Positions 7,892 through 39,091 of a stretch of 64,000 nt of DNA are shown here, in pieces (the first letter of the stretch is position 1; each line of letters starts with the position of its first letter). Below the pieces are notes generated by a model that saw only the letters and a list, made by a program, of their open reading frames with translations, made no database searches and had not been told where the DNA came from. A program made the translations under genes and the position numbers. The DNA lies in NCBI GenBank assembly GCA_902799045.1, contig CADBZH010000020.1, forward strand, positions 33,963 to 97,962. Direction: 5' to 3'. The DNA comes from an uncultured Eubacteriales bacterium. GTDB lineage: Bacteria > Bacillota > Clostridia > Christensenellales > Aristaeellaceae.

Positions 7892-8431
7892 TTACTTCCG
7901 GGTTTCCCAGGCGTGCAGCGCAGTCTTGTTGATGTCCAGCAGGTGCGCCTTGCGGCCGGAGAAGGTCTTTTCCATGATCTTGTGGACCATGGCCTCCGGC
8001 ACCACCGGGCTGACGCTCATCAGGGCGCCGAGCATCACGGTGTTGGCCGTGCGGGCGTTGCCCAGCTGCATGGCGATGTCGTTGGCGGGGACGTAGTAGA
8101 CGTTGATATCGTCCCGGGTCGCCTTCTGCTCGATCATCGAGCTGTTGACGAACAGGTTGCCGCCCGGCTTCACCAGCGATTCAAACTTGATCAGCGAGGG
8201 CAGGTTCATCACCACCACATCGTCGGCCTCATAGATCAGCGGGCAGCTGACCGGCTTTTCCGGGCTGATGACCACGGTGCAGTTGGCCGTGCCGCCGCGC
8301 ATCTCCGGGCCGTAGGAGGGCAGCCACGTGGCGTTCATGTCCGCGTACATGGCCGCGTAGGTCAGCATCTGGCCCATGGTCAGCACGCCCTGGCCGCCGG
8401 AACCGGCAAAAAACAGCTTTGTCGTCGCCAT
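7892..8431 (-). CDS. 2-oxoacid:ferredoxin oxidoreductase, gamma subunit (VOR/KOR type)
   Basis: Gamma subunit of the four-part CoA-acylating 2-oxoacid:ferredoxin oxidoreductase, in the cytoplasm. The 179-residue protein opens with FAGSGGQGVLTMGQMLTYAA and has WLPSYGPEMRGGTANCTVVIS, both hallmarks of this subunit. The ATG at 8431 is preferred because GGAGG lies 7 nt upstream; a GTG two codons earlier is too close to that site. It is the last gene of the delta-alpha-beta-gamma operon. Confidence 0.92.
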   Translation of the reverse strand: MATTKLFFAGSGGQGVLTMGQMLTYAAMYADMNATWLPSYGPEMRGGTANCTVVISPEKPVSCPLIYEADDVVVMNLPSLIKFESLVKPGGNLFVNSSMIEQKATRDDINVYYVPANDIAMQLGNARTANTVMLGALMSVSPVVPEAMVHKIMEKTFSGRKAHLLDINKTALHAWETRK

Positions 8432-8433
8432 AA

Positions 8434-9174
8434 TCACACCTCCGCTTCCCTGTAGACGCCCAGCGGATAGTAGGCCGCGACTTCCTCGCGCATCCGCTTC
8501 ATGGCGTCGGCCGGGGTCAGGCCCCAGTTCGTCGGGCAGGTGGAGAGCAGTTCCACGAAGGAGAAGCCCTTGCCCGCCAGCTGCACCTCAAACGCCTTGT
8601 GCACGGCCTTCTTCGCCGCGCGGATGTGGGCCGGGGAATCCAGCGCCACGCGCTCGATGTAGGCCGGGCCGTCCAGCGTCGCCAGCAGCTCGCAGATCTT
8701 CAGCGGCATGCCGGCCTGCTCGCGGGTGCGGCCGTCCACCGACGTGGTGGAGCGCTGGCCGATCAGCGTGGTGGGGGCCATCTGGCCGCCGGTCATGCCG
8801 TAGATGCCGTTGTTGATGAAGAACGTGGAGAACTTCTCGCCCCTCGCCGCAGCGTGGACGATCTCGCCCATGCCGATGGAGGCCAGGTCGCCGTCGCCCT
8901 GATAGGTGAACACCACCTTGTCCGGATGGACGCGGCGGATGCCGGAGGCCACTGCCGGGGCGCGCCCGTGGGCCGCCTCGCACATATCCACGTTCATAAA
9001 CTGGTGCGCCACCACCGAGCAGCCGATGGGCGCGACGCCGAGCGTCTTGCCCAGCAGGCCCATCTCATCCAGCGTCTCCATGATGATGCGATGGGCCACG
9101 CCGTGGGTGCAGCCGGGGCAATAGCTGGTGCTGACGGGCAGCATGCCCTCTGTGACTTTGAATACAGGTTTCAT
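8434..9174 (-). CDS. 2-oxoacid:ferredoxin oxidoreductase, beta (thiamine-diphosphate) subunit
   Basis: Catalytic subunit binding thiamine diphosphate and, with CxxC near the N terminus (STSYCPGCTHGVAHR), a 4Fe-4S cluster. The TPP motif GDGDLASIGMGEIVHAAARGE ends with the FINNGIYGMTGGQ segment. The start at 9174 gives 246 residues, the normal length, and overlaps the alpha-subunit stop by 4 bp. Longer readings upstream are a shadow of the alpha gene. Only 2 bp separate it from the gamma gene. Confidence 0.94.
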   Translation of the reverse strand: MKPVFKVTEGMLPVSTSYCPGCTHGVAHRIIMETLDEMGLLGKTLGVAPIGCSVVAHQFMNVDMCEAAHGRAPAVASGIRRVHPDKVVFTYQGDGDLASIGMGEIVHAAARGEKFSTFFINNGIYGMTGGQMAPTTLIGQRSTTSVDGRTREQAGMPLKICELLATLDGPAYIERVALDSPAHIRAAKKAVHKAFEVQLAGKGFSFVELLSTCPTNWGLTPADAMKRMREEVAAYYPLGVYREAEV

Positions 9175-10247
9175 CGCACTTCCTCCAGTATCTTCTTCGT
9201 CTTTTCCACGACCTCCAGGCTCGTGGGCAGCATGCCGCCCACGCGGTGGATCAGCTTCACCGGCACGCGGCCCTTGACGCCCAGGTTGATGTCCTGCAGC
9301 ATCTGGCCCATGCTCAGCTCCACGGAGATCACGGCCTTCGTCTTGTCGGAAATCGCGTCGAACGCCTTGTAGGGATAGGGCCACAGGCTGATCGGGCGGA
9401 TCATGCCCGCCTTGATGCCCTGGGCCTCCAACAGCTCCATGGCCTCCTTCGCCAGGCGCGCCATCGTGCCGAAGGCCACGAACACCACCTCGGCGTCCTC
9501 CAGGCCCTCGCACTCCACGCGCTCCAGCTCCTTCTCCATGACGGCGTACTTTTCAAACAGGTGCTCCACGTGCTGCTCCAGCACCTCCGGCTGCAGCCGC
9601 AGGCTCTTCACCACGCTGCGGGTCCCCTTCTCGGAGCCGGAGAGGGCCCAGGGCTTGGCGGTGGAGATCTCCTCGCTGGTGAAGGCGTGCTTCGCCTCCG
9701 GCAGCGTCACGGGCTCCATCATCTGGCCCATCAGGCCGTCCGCCAGCACCATCACGGGGTTGCGATACCTGTCGGCGATCGCGGGGGCCTCGTAGAGGAT
9801 GTCCACAGCCTCCTGGATCGACGCCGGTGCGAACACGGGGATCCTGTAATCGCCGTTGCCGCCGCCGCGGGTGACCTGGTTGTAGTCCGCCTGGCCCGGC
9901 TGGATGGAGCCGATGCCGGGGCCGCCGCGGGACACGTTCAGAAGCGTCACCGGCACCTCCGCGCCGCAGAGGAAGCTCATGCCCTCCTGCATCAGCGCGA
10001 TGCCCGGCGAGGACGAGGAGATGAAGCCGTTGCCGCCCGCCGCGCCGCAGCCGTAGGCCATGTTGATGGCCCCCAGCTCGCTCTCGGCCTGCAGGAACGC
10101 GCCGCCCCGCTTGGGCAGCTCGCGGCTCATGAACTCCGGGATCTCGCTCTGGGGCGTGATGGGGTAGCCGAAATAGAAGCGCACGCCGCCGCGGATGACA
10201 GCCTCGGCGAAGGCCTCGTTGCCCTTCATCAATACCTTTTCGCTCAT
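9171..10247 (-). CDS. vorB: 2-oxoacid:ferredoxin oxidoreductase, alpha subunit (VorB-like)
   Basis: Large subunit of the complex that interconverts a 2-oxoacid plus CoA with acyl-CoA, CO2 and reduced ferredoxin. The start at 10247 follows GGAGGGGGAAGC and gives 358 residues: KGNEAFAEAVIRGG, YFGYPITPQSEIPEF and ISSSSPGIALMQEG match the pyrimidine-binding domain; C-terminal domain II includes VAFGTMARLAKEA and SVELSMGQM. The four-gene order and sequence style resemble the set usually named 3-methyl-2-oxobutanoate (branched-chain) oxidoreductase VOR. Substrate cannot be proven from sequence; 2-oxoglutarate is the alternative. Confidence 0.9.
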   Translation of the reverse strand: MSEKVLMKGNEAFAEAVIRGGVRFYFGYPITPQSEIPEFMSRELPKRGGAFLQAESELGAINMAYGCGAAGGNGFISSSSPGIALMQEGMSFLCGAEVPVTLLNVSRGGPGIGSIQPGQADYNQVTRGGGNGDYRIPVFAPASIQEAVDILYEAPAIADRYRNPVMVLADGLMGQMMEPVTLPEAKHAFTSEEISTAKPWALSGSEKGTRSVVKSLRLQPEVLEQHVEHLFEKYAVMEKELERVECEGLEDAEVVFVAFGTMARLAKEAMELLEAQGIKAGMIRPISLWPYPYKAFDAISDKTKAVISVELSMGQMLQDINLGVKGRVPVKLIHRVGGMLPTSLEVVEKTKKILEEVR

Positions 10248-10474
10248 GCTTCCCCCTCCTCCAGCTGGTAGATTTCGATCGCGCAGTCCGGGCAGACCGT
10301 GGCGCAGCTGGCGCAGCCGATGCACTGCGCCTGATCGACGATCATCGCCGGACAGTAGCCCTTGGTGTTCACCTGGGTGTCCATCGCGATGATCTGCTTC
10401 GGGCAGAAGCTCTTGCACAGCTCGCAGCCCTTGCAGCGCTCGCGGTCAAAGATGACCTTGAACCTTCTTGCCAT
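10244..10474 (-). CDS. 2-oxoacid:ferredoxin oxidoreductase, delta (2x 4Fe-4S ferredoxin) subunit
   Basis: 76-residue ferredoxin subunit carrying two cluster motifs: CKGCELCKSFCP at about residues 13-24 and CIGCASCATVCP at about 51-62. It passes electrons from the TPP/cluster core to external ferredoxin. The start at 10474 follows AAGGAGG; a longer in-frame reading would begin inside the upstream region. It overlaps the alpha start by 4 bp and is the first gene of the operon. Confidence 0.93.
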   Translation of the reverse strand: MARRFKVIFDRERCKGCELCKSFCPKQIIAMDTQVNTKGYCPAMIVDQAQCIGCASCATVCPDCAIEIYQLEEGEA

Positions 10475-12740: not shown

Positions 12741-13034
12741 ATAATTGCCAAAGGCGATGACGAAGACGGCGGAGCCAATCGGTGCGCAGAGAGCCGGCCA
12801 GCTGCTGAAAGGCCGGACACAGGTTGCTCACAAGCCCATCCCTTCCGAGCCGGAAGCGCGAAAGGCCTTCGAGGGCGAAGGTACTGAGTAGACGCTTCCC
12901 GTGAAAGCTGCGTAAAGGCTTAGGGCTTGATGGAGCCTGAAGGGGCACGGCAACGTGCAATTTGAGTGGTACCGCGGGTTGATTGCGACTCGTCTCAAGG
13001 AACGCGCAAGCGTTCGTTTGAGGCGGGTTTTTTT
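12741..13034 (+). promoter_or_regulatory. T-box riboswitch leader 1 (specifier uncertain: AUC Ile or CCC Pro)
   Basis: A tRNA-sensing leader. Stem I starts with a GATGACGAAG k-turn side near 12756 and includes AGAGAG at 12788-12793 and a CCGGCC/GGCCGG distal stem. Stem II pairs 12852-12858 with 12893-12899, and stem III is GCACG-gcaa-CGTGC at 12945-12958. The T-box sequence GAGTGGTACCGCGGG lies at 12964-12978 and the terminator at 12989-13034. The base pairing the tRNA discriminator is U, so the tRNA should have A73. By geometry (NNN-X then CTTC of the lower stem) the specifier is AUC at 12838-12840 (Ile), but CCC at 12835-12837 followed by A is not excluded. Confidence 0.88.
12989..13034 (+). 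terminator. T-box 1 regulated terminator
   Basis: Long stem of CTCGTCTCAA-x-GAACGC with GCGTTC-x-TTTGAGGCGGG and loop GCAA, ending in seven T residues. Its 5' side overlaps the antiterminator pairing with the T-box sequence. Confidence 0.88.
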
Positions 13035-13112: not shown

Positions 13113-15412
13113 ATGAACATGACGGACACCAAGGGCATGCTCTTTGAGGTCGGCACCCGAATCCGCGCCCTGCGCGAGATCGCCGGCTACAGCGTGGTCT
13201 ACATGGCGGACCAGACCAAGCTGGACGTGGAGACCTACATGGATTATGAGGCCGGCAAGGCCGACCTGCCCTTTACCTTTATCCACAACTGCGCCCGCAT
13301 CTTCGGCGTGGACATCACCGACCTGATTGAGGGCCGCAGCGCCAACCTGCGCTCCTACACTGTCACCCGCAAGGGCGAGGCCACCATCACCGCCCGCGAG
13401 GAGGGCATCGAGATCAGCAACCTGGCGCCGCTGTTCTCCGGAAAGATCGCCGAGCCCTTCTGGGTCACCTACAGCTATTCCGAGGAGCTGCAGAACCAGC
13501 CCATCCACACCCACGCCCACCCCGGCCAGGAATTCGACCTGATCCTCTCCGGCGAACTGCTGGTGCGCATCGGCGACCACGTGGAGCACCTCAAAGAGGG
13601 CGACAGCATCTACTACGACTCCTCCACCCCCCACGGCGAGATCGCCACCGGCGGCAGGGACTGCACCTTCGTGGCCGTGGTGCTGCCCGGCGAGGAGACC
13701 GAGCAGGAGAAGCTGGTGGAGGCGGTCATGCCCGTGCGCCTGCCGAAGCAGCACATGGTGTACGACGAGTTCGTGGAGCTGGACGAGGACGGCGAGGGCC
13801 ACCTGCTGCACATCGACTTCCCGAATCGCGAGAACTTCAACTTCGCCTTCGACATCGTGGACAGGCTGGCCGAGCGCAAGCCCGACAAGCTGGCGATGCT
13901 GCACGTGGACCGCTACATGAACGAGCAGCGCTTCACCTTCGAGGACATCAGCCGCAAGTCCAACCGCGCCGCCAACTACTTCAAGGCCCTGGGCATCAAA
14001 AAGGGCGACCGGGTGATGCTGGTGCTGCGCCGCAACTGGCAGTTCTGGGTGGTGATGATGGCGCTGCACAAGCTGGGCGCGGTGGCCATCCCCGCCACGG
14101 ACCAGCTGCTGAAGAAGGACTATGAATACCGCTTTGAGACCGCGGGCGTGACCGCCATCTGCATGACCGCCGACAGCGATGGCGCGGTCCACGCGGAGGA
14201 GGCCTTCGAGACCTGCCCCTACGTGACGACCCGCATCCTCTGCGGCGGCAAGCGGGACGGCTGGCGCGATTTCGACGAGGAATACCTGCGCTATCGCTCC
14301 ACGTTCGCGCGCACCGAGGAATCCCCGAAGGGCAACGACCCGATGGTGATGTTCTTCTCCTCCGGCACCACCGGCTATCCGAAGCTGGCGATGCACAACC
14401 ACATGTACCCGCTGGGCCACTTCATCACGGCCCACTACTGGCACTGCGTGGAGCCGGACGGCCTGCACTTCACCATCAGCGACACCGGCTGGGGCAAGGC
14501 GCTGTGGGGCAAGCTCTACGGGCAATGGATGAACGAGTGCGCCGTGTTCGTGTATGACTTCGACCGCTTCAACGCCCACGACATCCTGCCGATGTTCGCT
14601 CGGTACAACATCACCACCTTCTGCGCCCCGCCGACCATGTACCGCTTCCTGATCCGCGAGGACATCTCGAAGTACGACCTGTCGAGCATCCACTGCGCCT
14701 GCACCGCCGGCGAGGCCCTGAACCCCGAGGTGTTCAACCTCTTCAAGAAGATCACGGGTCTGTCCATCATGGAGGCCTTCGGCCAGACCGAGACCACGCT
14801 GGTGCTGGGCAACTTCGCGGGCACCACGCCGAAGATTGGCTCCATGGGCAAGCCCAGCCCGATGTTCGACGTGGACCTGGTGGACGCCAACGGCAATCCC
14901 GTCAAGGCCGGCGAGCCGGGCGAGATCGTCATTCGCACGGACAGGGAGATCCCCTGCGGCCTGTTCATGGGCTACTACGGCAACCAGGAGGCCACCGACA
15001 CCGTGTGGCACGACGGCCTGTACCACACCCGCGACATGGCCTGGCGCGATGAGGACGGCTACTACTGGTACGTCAGCCGCACCGACGACGTGATCAAGTC
15101 CTCCGGCTACCGCATCGGGCCGTTCGAGATCGAGAGCGTCATCATGGAGCTGCCCTACGTGCTGGAGTGCGGCGTGAGCTGCCCTACGTGCTGGAGTGCG
15201 GCGTATCCGCCTCGCCGGACGAGATCCGCGGACAGGTGGTCAAGGCGTCCATCGTGCTCACCAAGGGCATCGAGGGCACCGAGGAACTCAAGAAGGACAT
15301 CCAGAACTACGTCAAGAAGCGAACTGCGCCCTACAAGTATCCCCGCATCGTGGTGTTCCGCGACGAGCTGCCCAAGACCATCAGCGGCAAGATCCAGAGA
15401 AACAAGCTGTAA
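13113..15412 (+). CDS. HTH-cupin-AMP-binding acyl-CoA ligase fusion, frameshifted by a 29-bp duplication
   Basis: Domains: XRE helix-turn-helix about residues 8-68 ([20 protein letters not shown]), cupin about 110-185 ([20 protein letters not shown]), then an AMP-forming acyl-CoA synthetase from about 235 with the [12 protein letters not shown] loop at about 414, EAFGQTETT and the [23 protein letters not shown] core. The C-terminal lysine domain ([12 protein letters not shown]) lies in another frame because bases 15147-15175 are repeated exactly at 15176-15204. Removing one copy restores about 756 residues ending at 15412; unrepaired, the frame runs out of phase to 15563. The ligase would make an acyl-CoA from an unknown carboxylate. 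Start ATG follows GAGGAGG. The T-box leader lies directly upstream. Confidence 0.85.
15147..15204 (+). repeat. 29-bp exact tandem duplication inside the ligase gene
   Basis: Unit 15147-15175 is repeated without mismatch at 15176-15204. As 29 is not a multiple of 3, it shifts the frame. It is either a real (possibly reversible) mutation or an assembly artefact. Confidence 0.95.
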
Positions 15413-15422
15413 GCCAAGTTCG

Positions 15423-15539
15423 ACAACCCCTCAGTCTGCTGCGCAGACAGCTCCCCTTACACAGGGGAGCCCATCGGGAAATCGCGTCCAAAGCCTCCCT
15501 TGTGTAAAGGGAGGCGGCCCGCATGGCCGGAGGGATTGT
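15423..15539. repeat. Palindromic dispersed repeat, family A copy 2 (inverted relative to copy 1)
   Basis: Begins ACAACCCCTCAGTC and ends GGAGGGATTGT, with inner hairpins like copy 1 at 10571-10687. It fills the space between the ligase gene and the GNAT gene. Confidence 0.8.
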
Positions 15540-15572
15540 AGTTGCGCAACAAATCCTATATGAGGTATCCAT

Positions 15573-35181: not shown

Positions 35182-35622
35182 TCACAGCGCGTCGACTTCC
35201 TCCTGGCTGAACATCCGCACATCGTGCATCTGAAACAGCTTCTCGGCCTTCTCGCCGTTGGAGAGGCGCATGATCAGCGCGGCCTCGCCCTCGTGGGAGG
35301 CGCGCATGAAGGAATACATGTACTCGACGGAGAGGTTGGCCTTCTCGATAAGCGCCAGCAGCTCGCACAGGCCCAGCGGCCGGTCCGGCACCCCGGCGCA
35401 GATCACGTGGTTCACCTTGGCGATGTAGCCGTGGTCGCGGAGCAGCAGCAGGCCCTTGTCGATCTGCTCGTTGGAAGTGATGATGCGGATGATGCCGAAG
35501 TTCTGGGTGTCGGCCACGGACAGGGCCAGCAGGTCCACGCCGCCGTTGCCCAACAGCTCGCACATCTCGCGAAGCGCGCCGGGGGTGTTCTCCAGGAATA
35601 CGGAAATCTGCCTGATAAACAT
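35182..35622 (-). CDS. Tandem ACT-domain protein
   Basis: 146 residues with two ACT domains (FIRQISVFLENTPGALREMC at the start; a second half from about residue 72, KVNHVICAGVPDRPLG). ACT domains bind amino acids and regulate metabolism. It lies 12 bp downstream of paaK, where such proteins are commonly found. AAGGAGG precedes the ATG. Likely an amino-acid-sensing partner of the CoA ligase; this role is inference. Confidence 0.88.
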   Translation of the reverse strand: MFIRQISVFLENTPGALREMCELLGNGGVDLLALSVADTQNFGIIRIITSNEQIDKGLLLLRDHGYIAKVNHVICAGVPDRPLGLCELLALIEKANLSVEYMYSFMRASHEGEAALIMRLSNGEKAEKLFQMHDVRMFSQEEVDAL

Positions 35623-35634
35623 CGCGATACCTCC

Positions 35635-36954
35635 TTAGAGCTTTCTGTTGTCGATCACGCGCTTGGCCTTGCCCTCGCTGCGCGGAATGGACTTGGGCGC
35701 GACCAGCTTCACCTTGGAGGCGATGCCCACCACGCTCTTGATCTGGGCGGTGATGTACTTGCGGACGTTTTCGATGTGGGCCACGGTGTCGCCGAACATC
35801 TCCTCGGTCATCTCCACCTGCACCTCCAGCGTGTCGGAGGAGTTCACCCGGTCCACGATCAGCATGTAGTGCGGGGCGACGCCGTCCGCGCCCACCAGCA
35901 CGGATTCGATCTGGCTGGGGAACACGTTCACGCCGCGGATGACCAGCATGTCGTCGGTGCGGCCCACGATGCGGCCCATGCGGGCCAGCGTACGTCCGCA
36001 GGCGCACTTGTCGGCGGTCAGCGTGCAGATGTCGTGGGTGCGATAGCGCATCATCGGCATGCCCGTCTTGGTGATGGTGGTGAACACCAGCTCGCCGTGC
36101 ATGCCGTAGGGCAGCTGCTTGCCGGTGGTGGGGTCGATGATCTCGGCGATCACGTGGTCCTCGTTGATGTGCATGCCGTTCTTCTCCAGGCACTCAAAGG
36201 CCACGCCGGGGCCGGCGATCTCCGTCAGGCCGTAAATGTCGCAGGCGTCGATCTCCAGCAGCTGCTCGATCCGCTGGCGCATCTCCTCGGTCCAGGGCTC
36301 CGCGCCGAAGCAGCCCGCCTTCAGCTTCAGATCCTTCTTCGGGTCGATGCCCATCTCGCGGATGGTCTCGCCCAGGTAGGAGGCGTAGGAGGGCGTGCAG
36401 CAGAGCATCGTGGCGCCCAGGTCCTTCATCATCATGATCTGGCGCTGGGTGTTGCCGCTGGACATGGGGATGACCATGGCCCCGATCCTGTCCGCGCCCT
36501 GATAGGCGCCGAAGCCGCCGGTGAACAGCCCCAGGCCGTAGGTGACCTGCACGATGTCTCCCCTCGTCGCGCCTGCGGCGGTGAGCGTGCGGGCCATCAT
36601 TTCGCTCCATACATCCACGTCGTTGCGGGTGTAGCCGGAGACGATGGGCTTGCCGGTGGTGCCGGAGGAGCCGTGGATGCGCACGATCTCCTCCTGCGGG
36701 GAGGCCAGGAGCCCGAAGGGATAGTAATCCCGCAGGTCGGTCTTTTCCATGAAGGGCAGATACTGAAGGTCCTCCACGCTGCGGATGTCCTCCGGCTTCA
36801 CGCCGGCGGCGTCCATGCGCTCGCGGTAGACCGGCACGTTTTCATACTCCCGCTTGACCGTCGCCGCCAGGCGCTCGCCCTGGATCTTGTGCAATTCGTC
36901 CCGGCTGATGCACTCCATCGCCGGATTGTATATCCTGTGTTCTCTCTGACTCAT
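35635..36954 (-). CDS. paaK: Phenylacetate-CoA ligase
   Basis: AMP-forming ligase making aryl-acetyl-CoA from phenylacetate or related acids. 439 residues with IHGSSGTTGKPIVSGYT (ATP loop), the conserved GAEPWTEEMRQRIE, IYGLTEIAGPGVAFEC, and TGMPMMRYRTHDIC...RIVGRTDDMLVIRGVNVFP segments, then the PaaK C-terminal domain. Downstream of another acyl-CoA synthetase and a Tyr-type T-box; a MITE copy lies in the gap. Forms a pair with the ACT protein. Exact substrate is unknown. Confidence 0.93.
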   Translation of the reverse strand: MSQREHRIYNPAMECISRDELHKIQGERLAATVKREYENVPVYRERMDAAGVKPEDIRSVEDLQYLPFMEKTDLRDYYPFGLLASPQEEIVRIHGSSGTTGKPIVSGYTRNDVDVWSEMMARTLTAAGATRGDIVQVTYGLGLFTGGFGAYQGADRIGAMVIPMSSGNTQRQIMMMKDLGATMLCCTPSYASYLGETIREMGIDPKKDLKLKAGCFGAEPWTEEMRQRIEQLLEIDACDIYGLTEIAGPGVAFECLEKNGMHINEDHVIAEIIDPTTGKQLPYGMHGELVFTTITKTGMPMMRYRTHDICTLTADKCACGRTLARMGRIVGRTDDMLVIRGVNVFPSQIESVLVGADGVAPHYMLIVDRVNSSDTLEVQVEMTEEMFGDTVAHIENVRKYITAQIKSVVGIASKVKLVAPKSIPRSEGKAKRVIDNRKL

Positions 36955-37121: not shown

Positions 37122-38756
37122 TTACCGTTCCACCTGCTCGGCCACCAGCTGCTTCGCGCCGTAGATCTCGCGCAGCTTCGGCTTTTCGATCTTGCCGGTG
37201 GGGTTGCGCGGCACGTCGGCAAAGATGATCCGGCGGGGACGCTTGTAGCGCGGCAGCGCCTGGCAGAACTTGTCGATATCCTCTTCGGTGGTCGTGGCGC
37301 CGGGCTTCAGCTCGATGATGGCCGCGGCGATCTCGCCCAGGCGCGGGTGCGGCAGGCCGATGACGGCCACGTCCTTGATGTCGTTGTGGGCGCGGAGGAA
37401 ATCCTCGATCTGCACCGGATACAGGTTTTCGCCGCCGGTGATGATGACGTCCTTCTTGCGGTCCACGAGGTAGATGAAGCCCTCCTCGTCGCGCATGGCC
37501 ATGTCGCCGGTCCACAGCCAGCCGTCGTGCAGCACCTCGGCGGTGGCCTTTTCATCCTTGTAATAGCAGGTCATCACGCCGGGACCCTTCACGGCCAGCT
37601 CGCCCACCTCGCCCTGGGGCACGTCGTTGCCCTGCTCGTCGATGATGCGCGCCTGCCAGCCATAGCCGGGGATGCCGATGGCGCCCACCTTGTCGATGTT
37701 CTCCACGCCCAGATGCACGCAGCCGGGGCCGATGGACTCGGACAGGCCGTAGTTGGTGTCGTACTGGTGGTTCGGGAACCTTTCCTTCCAGCGCTTGATG
37801 AGGCTGCGGGGCACCGGCTGGGCGCCGATGTGCATCAGCCGCCAGGCGGACAGGTCGTAGTCGTCCAGGTTGATCTCGCCGCGGTCGATGGCGTCCAGGA
37901 TGTCCTGCGCCCACGGCACCAGCAGCCACACGATGGAGCACTTCTCCTCGGCGGCGGTCTTGATGATGGTCAGCGGCTTCACACCCTTGAGCAGCACGGC
38001 CTTGCCGCCCATCAGGAACGAGCCGAACCAGTGCATCTTCGCGCCGGTGTGATACAGCGGCGGAATGCACAGGAACACGTCCTTGTGGGTCTGGCCGTGG
38101 TGCTTCTGCTCGGTCTTGCAGGCGTGCATCAGGCTCTCGTGGTTGTGCAGGATGGCCTTGGGGAAGCCGGTGGTGCCGGAGGAGAAGTAGATGGCTGCGT
38201 CGTCCTCGTCGGTCAGCGGCACCTTGGGGGCGTCGCTGGGCTGGTTGGAGGCCAGGTGCAGGTAGTTCTCGGCGAAGGTCGGGCAGTTGTCGCCCACGTA
38301 GAACAGCAGCTTCACCCGGGGCATTTTGTCGATGCTCTCCTCCACGCGGCCGATGAACTCCGGCCCGAAGAACATGGCGTCCACGTCCGCCAGGTCCGCG
38401 CAATACTGGATCTCATCCGCGGAATAGCGGTAGTTCATGGGCACCACCAGCGCGCCGGTCTTGAGGATGCCGAAATACAGCGGCAGCCACTCCAGGCAGT
38501 TCATCATCAGGATGGCCACCTTGTCGCCCTTCCGGATGCCCCTGCTCATCAGCAGCCTGGCGCAGCGGTTCGCCTTTTCGTTGAACACGCTCCAGGTGAT
38601 TTCCCGGCGGAATTCCTCGGAAGCGCCGCGCTCGATCAGCTCGTACTCCTTCCAGGTGACCCGGCGATCCTCGCGCACCTCCGGGTTGATCTCCACCAGC
38701 GCGATCTCAGAGCCATACTTTCTGGCGTTGTTCTCAAGAATCTCGGTAATTGGCAT
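37122..38756 (-). CDS. AMP-forming acyl-CoA synthetase under a T-box
   Basis: 544 residues: ATP loop IYFSSGTTGFPKAILHNHES at about 195-214, PLYHTGAKMHWFG, YGLSESIGPGC, DGWLWTGDMAMRDEEGFIYLVDRKKDVIITGGENLYP hinge, and catalytic-Lys end NPTGKIEKPKLRE. Converts a carboxylic acid, ATP and CoA to acyl-CoA. Start at 38756 has GGAGG 9 nt upstream; longer readings enter the T-box leader. The leader has a Tyr specifier, which suggests an aromatic acid substrate; sequence alone does not show it. Confidence 0.9.
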   Translation of the reverse strand: MPITEILENNARKYGSEIALVEINPEVREDRRVTWKEYELIERGASEEFRREITWSVFNEKANRCARLLMSRGIRKGDKVAILMMNCLEWLPLYFGILKTGALVVPMNYRYSADEIQYCADLADVDAMFFGPEFIGRVEESIDKMPRVKLLFYVGDNCPTFAENYLHLASNQPSDAPKVPLTDEDDAAIYFSSGTTGFPKAILHNHESLMHACKTEQKHHGQTHKDVFLCIPPLYHTGAKMHWFGSFLMGGKAVLLKGVKPLTIIKTAAEEKCSIVWLLVPWAQDILDAIDRGEINLDDYDLSAWRLMHIGAQPVPRSLIKRWKERFPNHQYDTNYGLSESIGPGCVHLGVENIDKVGAIGIPGYGWQARIIDEQGNDVPQGEVGELAVKGPGVMTCYYKDEKATAEVLHDGWLWTGDMAMRDEEGFIYLVDRKKDVIITGGENLYPVQIEDFLRAHNDIKDVAVIGLPHPRLGEIAAAIIELKPGATTTEEDIDKFCQALPRYKRPRRIIFADVPRNPTGKIEKPKLREIYGAKQLVAEQVER

Positions 38757-38790: not shown

Positions 38791-39060
38791 AAATCCCGTC
38801 CCCCGCAAACGCAGAGGACGGGATGAAAACCCGTGGTACCACCTCTATTTGACGCCGCCTTGCGGCAGGCGCCCTCAGAGGGACCTTCACAGTCCCACGC
38901 GCTGTATCGGGCGCGCCCGTCGCCGCCTAATCGCCCCTTCGGGTTTTCAGCGCGCCGCTCCGGGGTGTATTCAGCCGACCCGCGCAACCGCCTCGCACCT
39001 GCCGGCGGCTCTCTTCATGCGTTGAGAGGGGCTTACTTGTCTCCCATCATTGCGTTATTT
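38791..39060 (-). promoter_or_regulatory. T-box riboswitch leader 2, tyrosine specifier (UAC)
   Basis: Reading the minus strand: stem I 5' side ATGATGGGAGACAAGTAAGCC near 39050 (with the AGTA specifier-loop motif), AGAGAGCCGCC distal stem, then GGCTGAA-TAC-ACCCCGG with UAC at 38969-38967. The T-box sequence AGAGGTGGTACCACGGG is at 38846-38830. The base facing the tRNA discriminator is U, fitting A73 of tRNA-Tyr. The terminator lies at 38824-38793. Confidence 0.9.
38793..38824 (-). terminator. T-box 2 regulated terminator
   Basis: ATCCCGTCC pairs with GGACGGGAT across a short loop; on the minus strand followed by TTATTAT. The tail is weak for a terminator. Confidence 0.75.
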
Positions 39061-39062
39061 AA

Positions 39063-39091
39063 ATCTTAACCATTTATACGCGAAGCGTCAA
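39063..39091 (-). promoter_or_regulatory. Promoter of T-box 2 transcript
   Basis: Minus strand TTGACG (39091-39086) and TAAGAT (39068-39063), 17-bp spacer. Confidence 0.7.

Follow-up and report, generated by a model that had tools for sequence, protein, structure and literature searches.

The Tyr T-box leader and the operon behind it

The stretch of DNA under study, hereafter the window, is 64,000 nucleotides long. Its minus strand carries a T-box leader RNA, preceded by a promoter-like site and followed by genes for two CoA ligases and an ACT domain pair protein. From the promoter-like site onwards, the features are:

39063-39091, minus strand: sigma-70-like promoter TTGACG-N17-TAAGAT (pattern scan, 9/12 matches)
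38811-39059, minus strand: T-box leader RNA (RF00230, Rfam covariance match)
38967-38969, minus strand: specifier triplet UAC (Tyr), from the covariance alignment and eight register controls
38838-38841, minus strand: UGGU bulge, able to pair with the ACCA end of tRNA-Tyr
38793-38824, minus strand: intrinsic terminator, alternative to the antiterminator (38811-38849), from folding and pattern scan
37122-38756, minus strand: AMP-forming acyl-CoA ligase of 544 aa (AMPL), proposed arylacetate-CoA ligase
35635-36954, minus strand: PaaK-like phenylacetate-CoA ligase of 439 aa (Pfam; TIGR02155 below cut-off)
35182-35622, minus strand: ACT domain pair protein (PF19571, Pfam), proposed aromatic amino acid sensor

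A T-box had been claimed at 38791-39091 in the initial annotation, and covariance analysis bore this out. In a cmscan search of the window, RF00230 matched the minus strand at 39059-38811 with 99.7 bits (gathering score 93, E 9e-21) over the full length of the model (1-219); the additional span of the claim corresponds to the promoter-like site and the terminator. Two promoter-like sites were found by pattern scan against 0.9 in shuffles, a count that is not above chance, and sequence resembling the TTGACG-N17-TAAGAT site can be seen by eye in relatives. The terminator (38824-38793) is made of a 14-bp stem and the tail TTATTATGGA, whose U tract is weak. It folds far better than shuffled sequence (-26.9 kcal/mol, z -6.5); terminator-like patterns as such number 4 against 3.1 in shuffles, which is not above chance either. 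The antiterminator stands out less when folded (-12.7, z -1.7). Folding and pattern scan indicate that terminator and antiterminator have bases in common, so that they are mutually exclusive. Stem I on its own folds no better than shuffles (z +1.1).

The register of the specifier was read from T-boxes of the same genome. In the host genome G000 (2.9 Mb, 54 contigs, 93% complete), 15 matches to the T-box model have an E value of 0.001 or less, and 5 of these exceed the gathering score. The other 14 were aligned, their downstream genes being named by eye from the translations rather than by HMM. Eight of them served as controls: pheS (UUC), trpE and a TrpX-like ABC system (both UGG), valS (GUC), metG (AUG), leuS (CUC), ileS (AUC) and an aminotransferase-tyrS string (UAC). 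The codon lies six bases 5' of GAG in all eight (CAG in one), and the window leader has UAC at this place. The registers AUA, ACA, CAC and GAA of the window specifier loop were ruled out, as the eight controls put the codon at UAC; the specifier named in the initial annotation is thus located at 38969-38967. The serS leader is an exception in which seven bases would be needed, and no specifier could be read in the alaS leader of G000.

The tRNA-Tyr of the host genome has the anticodon GUA, A73 and an A-CCA end. Its anticodon pairs with UAC and UGGU complements A73CCA, in agreement with the pairing to be expected if the leader recognises this tRNA. The U facing the discriminator, which had been put forward as a further mark of tRNA-Tyr, is consistent with A73 but fits many other tRNAs as well, and is therefore not specific for Tyr. 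The AGTA mentioned in the same annotation is present (ACAAGUAAG). UGGC stands in place of UGGU in both Trp leaders and in the Ser and hisS leaders of G000, as a G73 partner would need; G73 is the tRNA identity that goes with the Trp, Ser and His leaders. We read the window leader as a class I transcriptional T-box that would respond to tRNA-Tyr.

The genes behind the leader, previously described as an acyl-CoA synthetase, paaK and a tandem ACT protein, were recovered as an AMP-forming ligase, a PaaK-like ligase and a PF19571 pair. AMPL reached the cut-off of none of the 25 listed NCBIfam models (of 108 matched), and the solved structures closest to it by sequence are FadD13 and FadD5. The second ligase misses the equivalog TIGR02155 (556.3 bits, cut-off 646.3) and is therefore called PaaK-like only. 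No minus-strand terminator was listed by pattern scan in the 167-base gap between the two ligase genes, and in the eight closest relatives the gap between match ends is 39-212 bases. The three genes thus look like one unit. The ACT pair protein may sense an aromatic amino acid, a role that is a guess.

T-boxes and gene strings in related genomes

A protein search with the ligase gave at least 588 confirmed relatives, of which 80 GTDB loci were kept and their upstream DNA scanned by pattern. Among the matches listed, the nearest relatives are by title rumen and gut genome bins. A T-box precedes the ligase in 10 of the 80 kept loci (of at least 588 relatives) by pattern, and all ten were confirmed by Rfam, that of L039 (92.9 bits) lying slightly under the gathering score. 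Three more were found among 22 further orthologues fetched from the order and two other families (L175, L178 and L180, the last scoring only 60.1 bits). The specifier is UAC in all 14 ligase-linked T-boxes, window included, so that the comparison of leaders agrees with the tyrosine assignment made for the window. The specifiers of L024, L020, L027 and L036 were read by eye. In some ligase-linked leaders the distance from the codon to the GAG-like bases exceeds six, and UAC was assigned there from the GAAUAC context.

Counting two symporter-led cases, 12 of the 80 kept loci (of at least 588) are T-box-positive, a minority and a lower bound; the other 68 were screened by pattern, Rfam being applied to the 12 pattern-positive loci. 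Pattern matches inside genes were dropped as chance (L151, L166, L262 and the second ones in L175, L180 and L244). The order locus L163 offers just 234 bases 5' of its ligase, where a T-box is possible. By eye, the Tyr T-box is absent before the ligase of one close relative (L017, upstream of position 10001) and reduced to a stub in another (L019, about 9840-9940). Both the loss and the truncation may be assembly faults, several of the genomes being metagenome bins. In a tree of 63 ligase sequences (41 of the 80 GTDB loci, 19 of the 22 order loci, the window and 2 outgroups), ligases with a T-box are scattered over several parts, some of them weakly supported, and gains cannot be told from losses. 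The places of L163, L168 and L179 in this tree are meaningless, as their sequences are in the wrong frame. In the stretches of up to 250 bases upstream of 66 T-box-less ligase loci, words of the type AAAGCGTT / GCGTTAAA are frequent. AAAGCGTT is present upstream in 15 of the 66, compared with 1.1 on average for pieces drawn at random from these loci; the control is a weak one, such pieces being mostly coding and less AT-rich. Such words are perhaps a protein-binding site.

The host also has a sodium-solute symporter gene behind a UAC T-box of its own (L005 / L236, G000:C5:71840-72092, 94.0 bits). T-boxes precede 11 of the 30 symporter homologues fetched, that is the host's and 10 others, or 11 of the 20 with 61% identity or more. 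The ten others were confirmed by Rfam, three of them under the gathering score, and the GTDB loci L026 and L081 supply two more. All 13 symporter-linked T-boxes, own genome included, have the specifier UAC. For L005 the spacing would also allow ACC (Thr); this was dismissed, as the loops of the 12 remaining symporter T-boxes read GAAUAC or GAAAUAC, which gives UAC. The base after the specifier is C in L005, G in L018, U in L237 and A in the other Tyr leaders read. The best score of the symporter is to PutP, at 195.3 of 515.5 bits far under the cut-off, and it reached the cut-off of no listed model. A TPP riboswitch (67.7 bits) was found at 199-298 on the minus strand of L237, near the T-box-led symporter.

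In several relatives, ligase, symporter and indolepyruvate:ferredoxin oxidoreductase (IorAB) genes form strings behind a single Tyr T-box. L081 has, on a single strand, the T-box (7988-8236), symporter, ligase, IorA and IorB. The T-box of L027 is followed by ligase, IorA and IorB, and that of L039 by ligase and IorA, after which the contig ends. The order is T-box, symporter (SSS), ligase in L026 and T-box, ligase, symporter (SSS) in L062. No pathway gene was seen directly behind the ligase in L024, L175, L178 and L180, 1.5 kb being covered in the last three. Within about 10 kb of the 80 kept ligases (of at least 588), where the contig allows, we counted IorA at 18 loci, IorB at 14, the symporter at 10, PaaK at 11 and the ACT pair at 11. 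Position alone would give about 0.9 IorA neighbours in 80; the binomial value for this excess is no strict probability, the species being related. Matches to the cupin-ligase fusion described below (CUPL) around the same 80 ligases were attributed to the common ligase fold.

In a sample of 151 genomes of the order, IorA is matched strongly, with E below 1e-80, in 22 of the 23 genomes that bear the ligase and in 68 of the 128 others (Fisher 4e-5, from hand counts and uncorrected for kinship). A T-box directly on iorA was considered and dismissed, since by pattern scan none lies within 1.5 kb of iorA in the 29 IorA loci from outside the host. The iorAB genes of the host are on contig C41, a different one from that of the ligase operon, and no T-box was found there. 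Host IorA misses TIGR03336 (528.8 bits over residues 1-451, cut-off 650.9) and the remainder of the protein matches in another frame, that is, the iorA frame is broken. The apparent break lies at G000:C41:3860-4213.

A proposed route of tyrosine salvage

T-box switches are opened by uncharged tRNA, as is established for the class. At the window locus, the acceptor end of uncharged tRNA-Tyr would bind the UGGU bulge, the antiterminator would form and the ligase/PaaK-like/ACT-pair operon would be transcribed. If uncharged tRNA-Tyr opens the switch, the product of the operon should help to supply tyrosine. A CoA ligase and an arylpyruvate:ferredoxin oxidoreductase would do so only by turning arylacetate into arylacetyl-CoA, then arylpyruvate, then tyrosine. 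Since tyrosine is the product sensed, the acid should be 4-hydroxyphenylacetate. In the route that we propose, the ligase or ligases would thus convert an imported arylacetate, most likely 4-hydroxyphenylacetate, to its CoA ester, which IorAB would reductively carboxylate to the arylpyruvate, and an aminotransferase would then yield tyrosine. The aminotransferase gene beside tyrS, behind a UAC T-box, could provide the last step; its product is a class I/II aminotransferase. Since the symporter (L005), the presumed arylacetate importer, and the aminotransferase-tyrS string (L010) of the host also lie behind UAC T-boxes, one signal may govern uptake and activation as well as amination and charging. 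From leaders and gene content, we consider it quite probable that the Tyr T-box switches on the activation of an arylacetate for tyrosine salvage and, in operons with symporter and IorAB, its uptake and reductive carboxylation.

The genes for ligase, IorAB and aminotransferase were all found in the host, with the broken iorA frame noted above. So were tyrA and pheA, which lie on contig C9 adjoining genes for DAHP synthase and the shikimate pathway (named by eye); the genome-wide Rfam search gave no T-box on C9 at E 0.001 or better. Loss of de novo tyrosine synthesis was therefore dismissed as the reason for salvage, which would instead supplement de novo synthesis. According to passages of PMC7356843, Phe is formed from phenylacetate in the rumen, and branched-chain acids give rise to Ile, Val and Leu. 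The same passages derive Tyr from Phe rather than from 4-hydroxyphenylacetate, which counts against the proposed substrate.

The ligase might activate another acid, such as a fatty acid or another aromatic, and simply belong to a regulon for Tyr starvation. Its proximity to FadD13 and FadD5, the lack of a match above cut-off to any listed substrate-specific model, and the four loci that have no pathway gene directly behind the ligase would all fit such a role. We nevertheless regard it as unlikely, given the gene strings with IorAB, PaaK and the ACT pair and the strong IorA in all but one of the 23 ligase-bearing genomes.

Known pathways employ IorAB and PaaK-type enzymes in either direction, and IorAB might instead oxidise Tyr-derived arylpyruvates in a fermentation, with the ligases running backwards or handling the products. 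The distribution of the T-box gives this some room: most ligase orthologues (68 of the 80 kept, by pattern, L017 and L019 included) have none at ligase or symporter, and 15 of the 18 IorA-linked ligase loci are among these 68. However, uncharged tRNA-Tyr turns on the genes behind such a T-box, whereas an operon for Tyr catabolism would need the reverse, and UAC is invariant across 27 T-boxes. A switch of this kind makes no sense for burning tyrosine, and we hold a catabolic role to be very unlikely. The preference for salvage over catabolism, already expressed in the initial annotation, is supported by the UAC T-boxes that lead IorA or IorAB strings (L027, L039, L081) and the symporter (L026, L062, L081).

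That the T-box-led symporter imports tyrosine itself, the ligase operon being a loosely linked second branch, would accord with the T-box-controlled amino acid transporters mentioned in parts of the TBDB paper (PMC7778990) and with PutP as its best, though low, score, but is highly improbable in view of L081 and L026, where one UAC T-box leads both symporter and ligase, in L081 together with IorAB.

The parallel Ile/Val system and relation to known systems

Elsewhere in the window, a second T-box precedes another CoA ligase gene:

12748-13000, plus strand: second T-box, specifier AUC (Ile); Rfam 60.6 bits, below the gathering score, kept in relatives
13113-15563, plus strand: HTH-cupin-CoA ligase fusion (CUPL), its ligase part closest to MbcS
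7892-10418, minus strand: 2-oxoacid:ferredoxin oxidoreductase subunits, VorB type (NF005507)

The two HTH matches of CUPL are slightly under the Pfam cut-off, and its frame apparently breaks near the C-terminus (about 15180-15563). MbcS (NF047394) is the best NCBIfam match of the ligase part; at 318 bits it misses the cut-off of this equivalog (850), perhaps partly because of the frame break. The breaks in the cupin-ligase gene and in iorA may be assembly faults. The VorB-type gene cluster lies close to the gene of the Ile T-box and scores 471.9 bits against the VorB subfamily NF005507 (cut-off 399). T-boxes were found by pattern in 20 of 30 CUPL-homologous loci, own included. Rfam was run on 14 of these 20 and found at least one T-box in each (20 T-boxes in total); the negatives rest on pattern. 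The CUPL-type specifiers, that of the window included, are 13 AUC and 8 GUA, and in six loci (L104, L105, L107, L109, L112 and L116) paralogues stand in tandem, AUC (Ile) first and GUA (Val) second. Neither ilvC nor ilvD was found in G000 (14 of 14 controls positive for each gene, genome 93% complete), and the absence of both is likely; acetolactate synthase is present.

Purified MbcS of Staphylococcus aureus is selective for 2-methylbutyrate and isobutyrate, as stated in portions of PMC10026030, and in the rumen Ile is formed from 2-methylbutyrate and Val from isobutyrate (passages of PMC7356843). These are the acids from which Ile and Val would be made, and the Ile/Val pair, with its MbcS-like ligase part, provides an independent check on the salvage idea. 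Taking both systems jointly, we lean towards the view that in rumen and gut anaerobes separate Tyr, Ile and Val T-boxes each switch their own acid-CoA ligase, so that each amino acid is rebuilt from the acid that its own fermentation leaves, and that the importer and 2-oxoacid:ferredoxin oxidoreductase belong to this tRNA-read salvage where they are linked. There are many CoA ligases, with substrates that are hard to predict; if this view is true, a T-box in front of one names the amino acid fed by its product, and for orphan CoA ligases the substrate can be read from the specifier. It would also put on a genetic footing the need of rumen bacteria for branched-chain volatile fatty acids, a requirement described long ago. 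With genes and switch assigned to rumen reductive carboxylation, a nutritional trait of long standing would become testable in isolates and predictable from genomes.

The window leader resembles class I T-boxes of RF00230 in its full covariance match, stem I specifier, UGGN bulge and terminator/antiterminator. It differs in its targets, which are neither tRNA ligases nor de novo biosynthesis genes nor named amino acid transporters: a CoA ligase, a PaaK-like ligase and an ACT pair lie behind it, and relatives add IorAB and a symporter to these. Use of aryl acids for aromatic amino acid synthesis via IorAB is described in parts of PMC4162585. The route of Methanococcus maripaludis (Porat et al., via the same source) has the aryl acid and IorAB in common with ours, which differs in being bacterial, in its presumed control by tRNA sensing and in a substrate deduced from the genes. 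Carboxylation of phenylacetate and branched-chain acids in the rumen (Allison and co-workers, as cited in passages of PMC7356843) shares habitat and chemistry; here genes and switch are named, and Tyr rather than Phe would be sensed. Compared with MbcS as presented in portions of PMC10026030, CUPL is a ligase fused to HTH-like and cupin parts, and genes of this kind lie under Ile or Val T-boxes.

T-boxes, the use of aryl acids through IorAB and reductive carboxylation in the rumen are thus known already; what appears to be new is that an RNA class already described has targets which together define an acid-salvage regulon. In open-access literature, which takes in few of the subscription journals, and as far as titles and the openings of abstracts show, we found no T-box linked with IorAB, with PaaK or with an acid-CoA ligase in a salvage role. 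Downstream genes are catalogued in TBDB, according to parts of PMC7778990, and single cases of a T-box before a ligase may already be listed there.

One further T-box of the host genome, L004 (G000:C49:5296-5534), has the specifier CUC (Leu) and precedes an isopropylmalate-synthase-like gene (named by eye), an arrangement that fits Leu being made from a salvage-derived 2-oxoacid.
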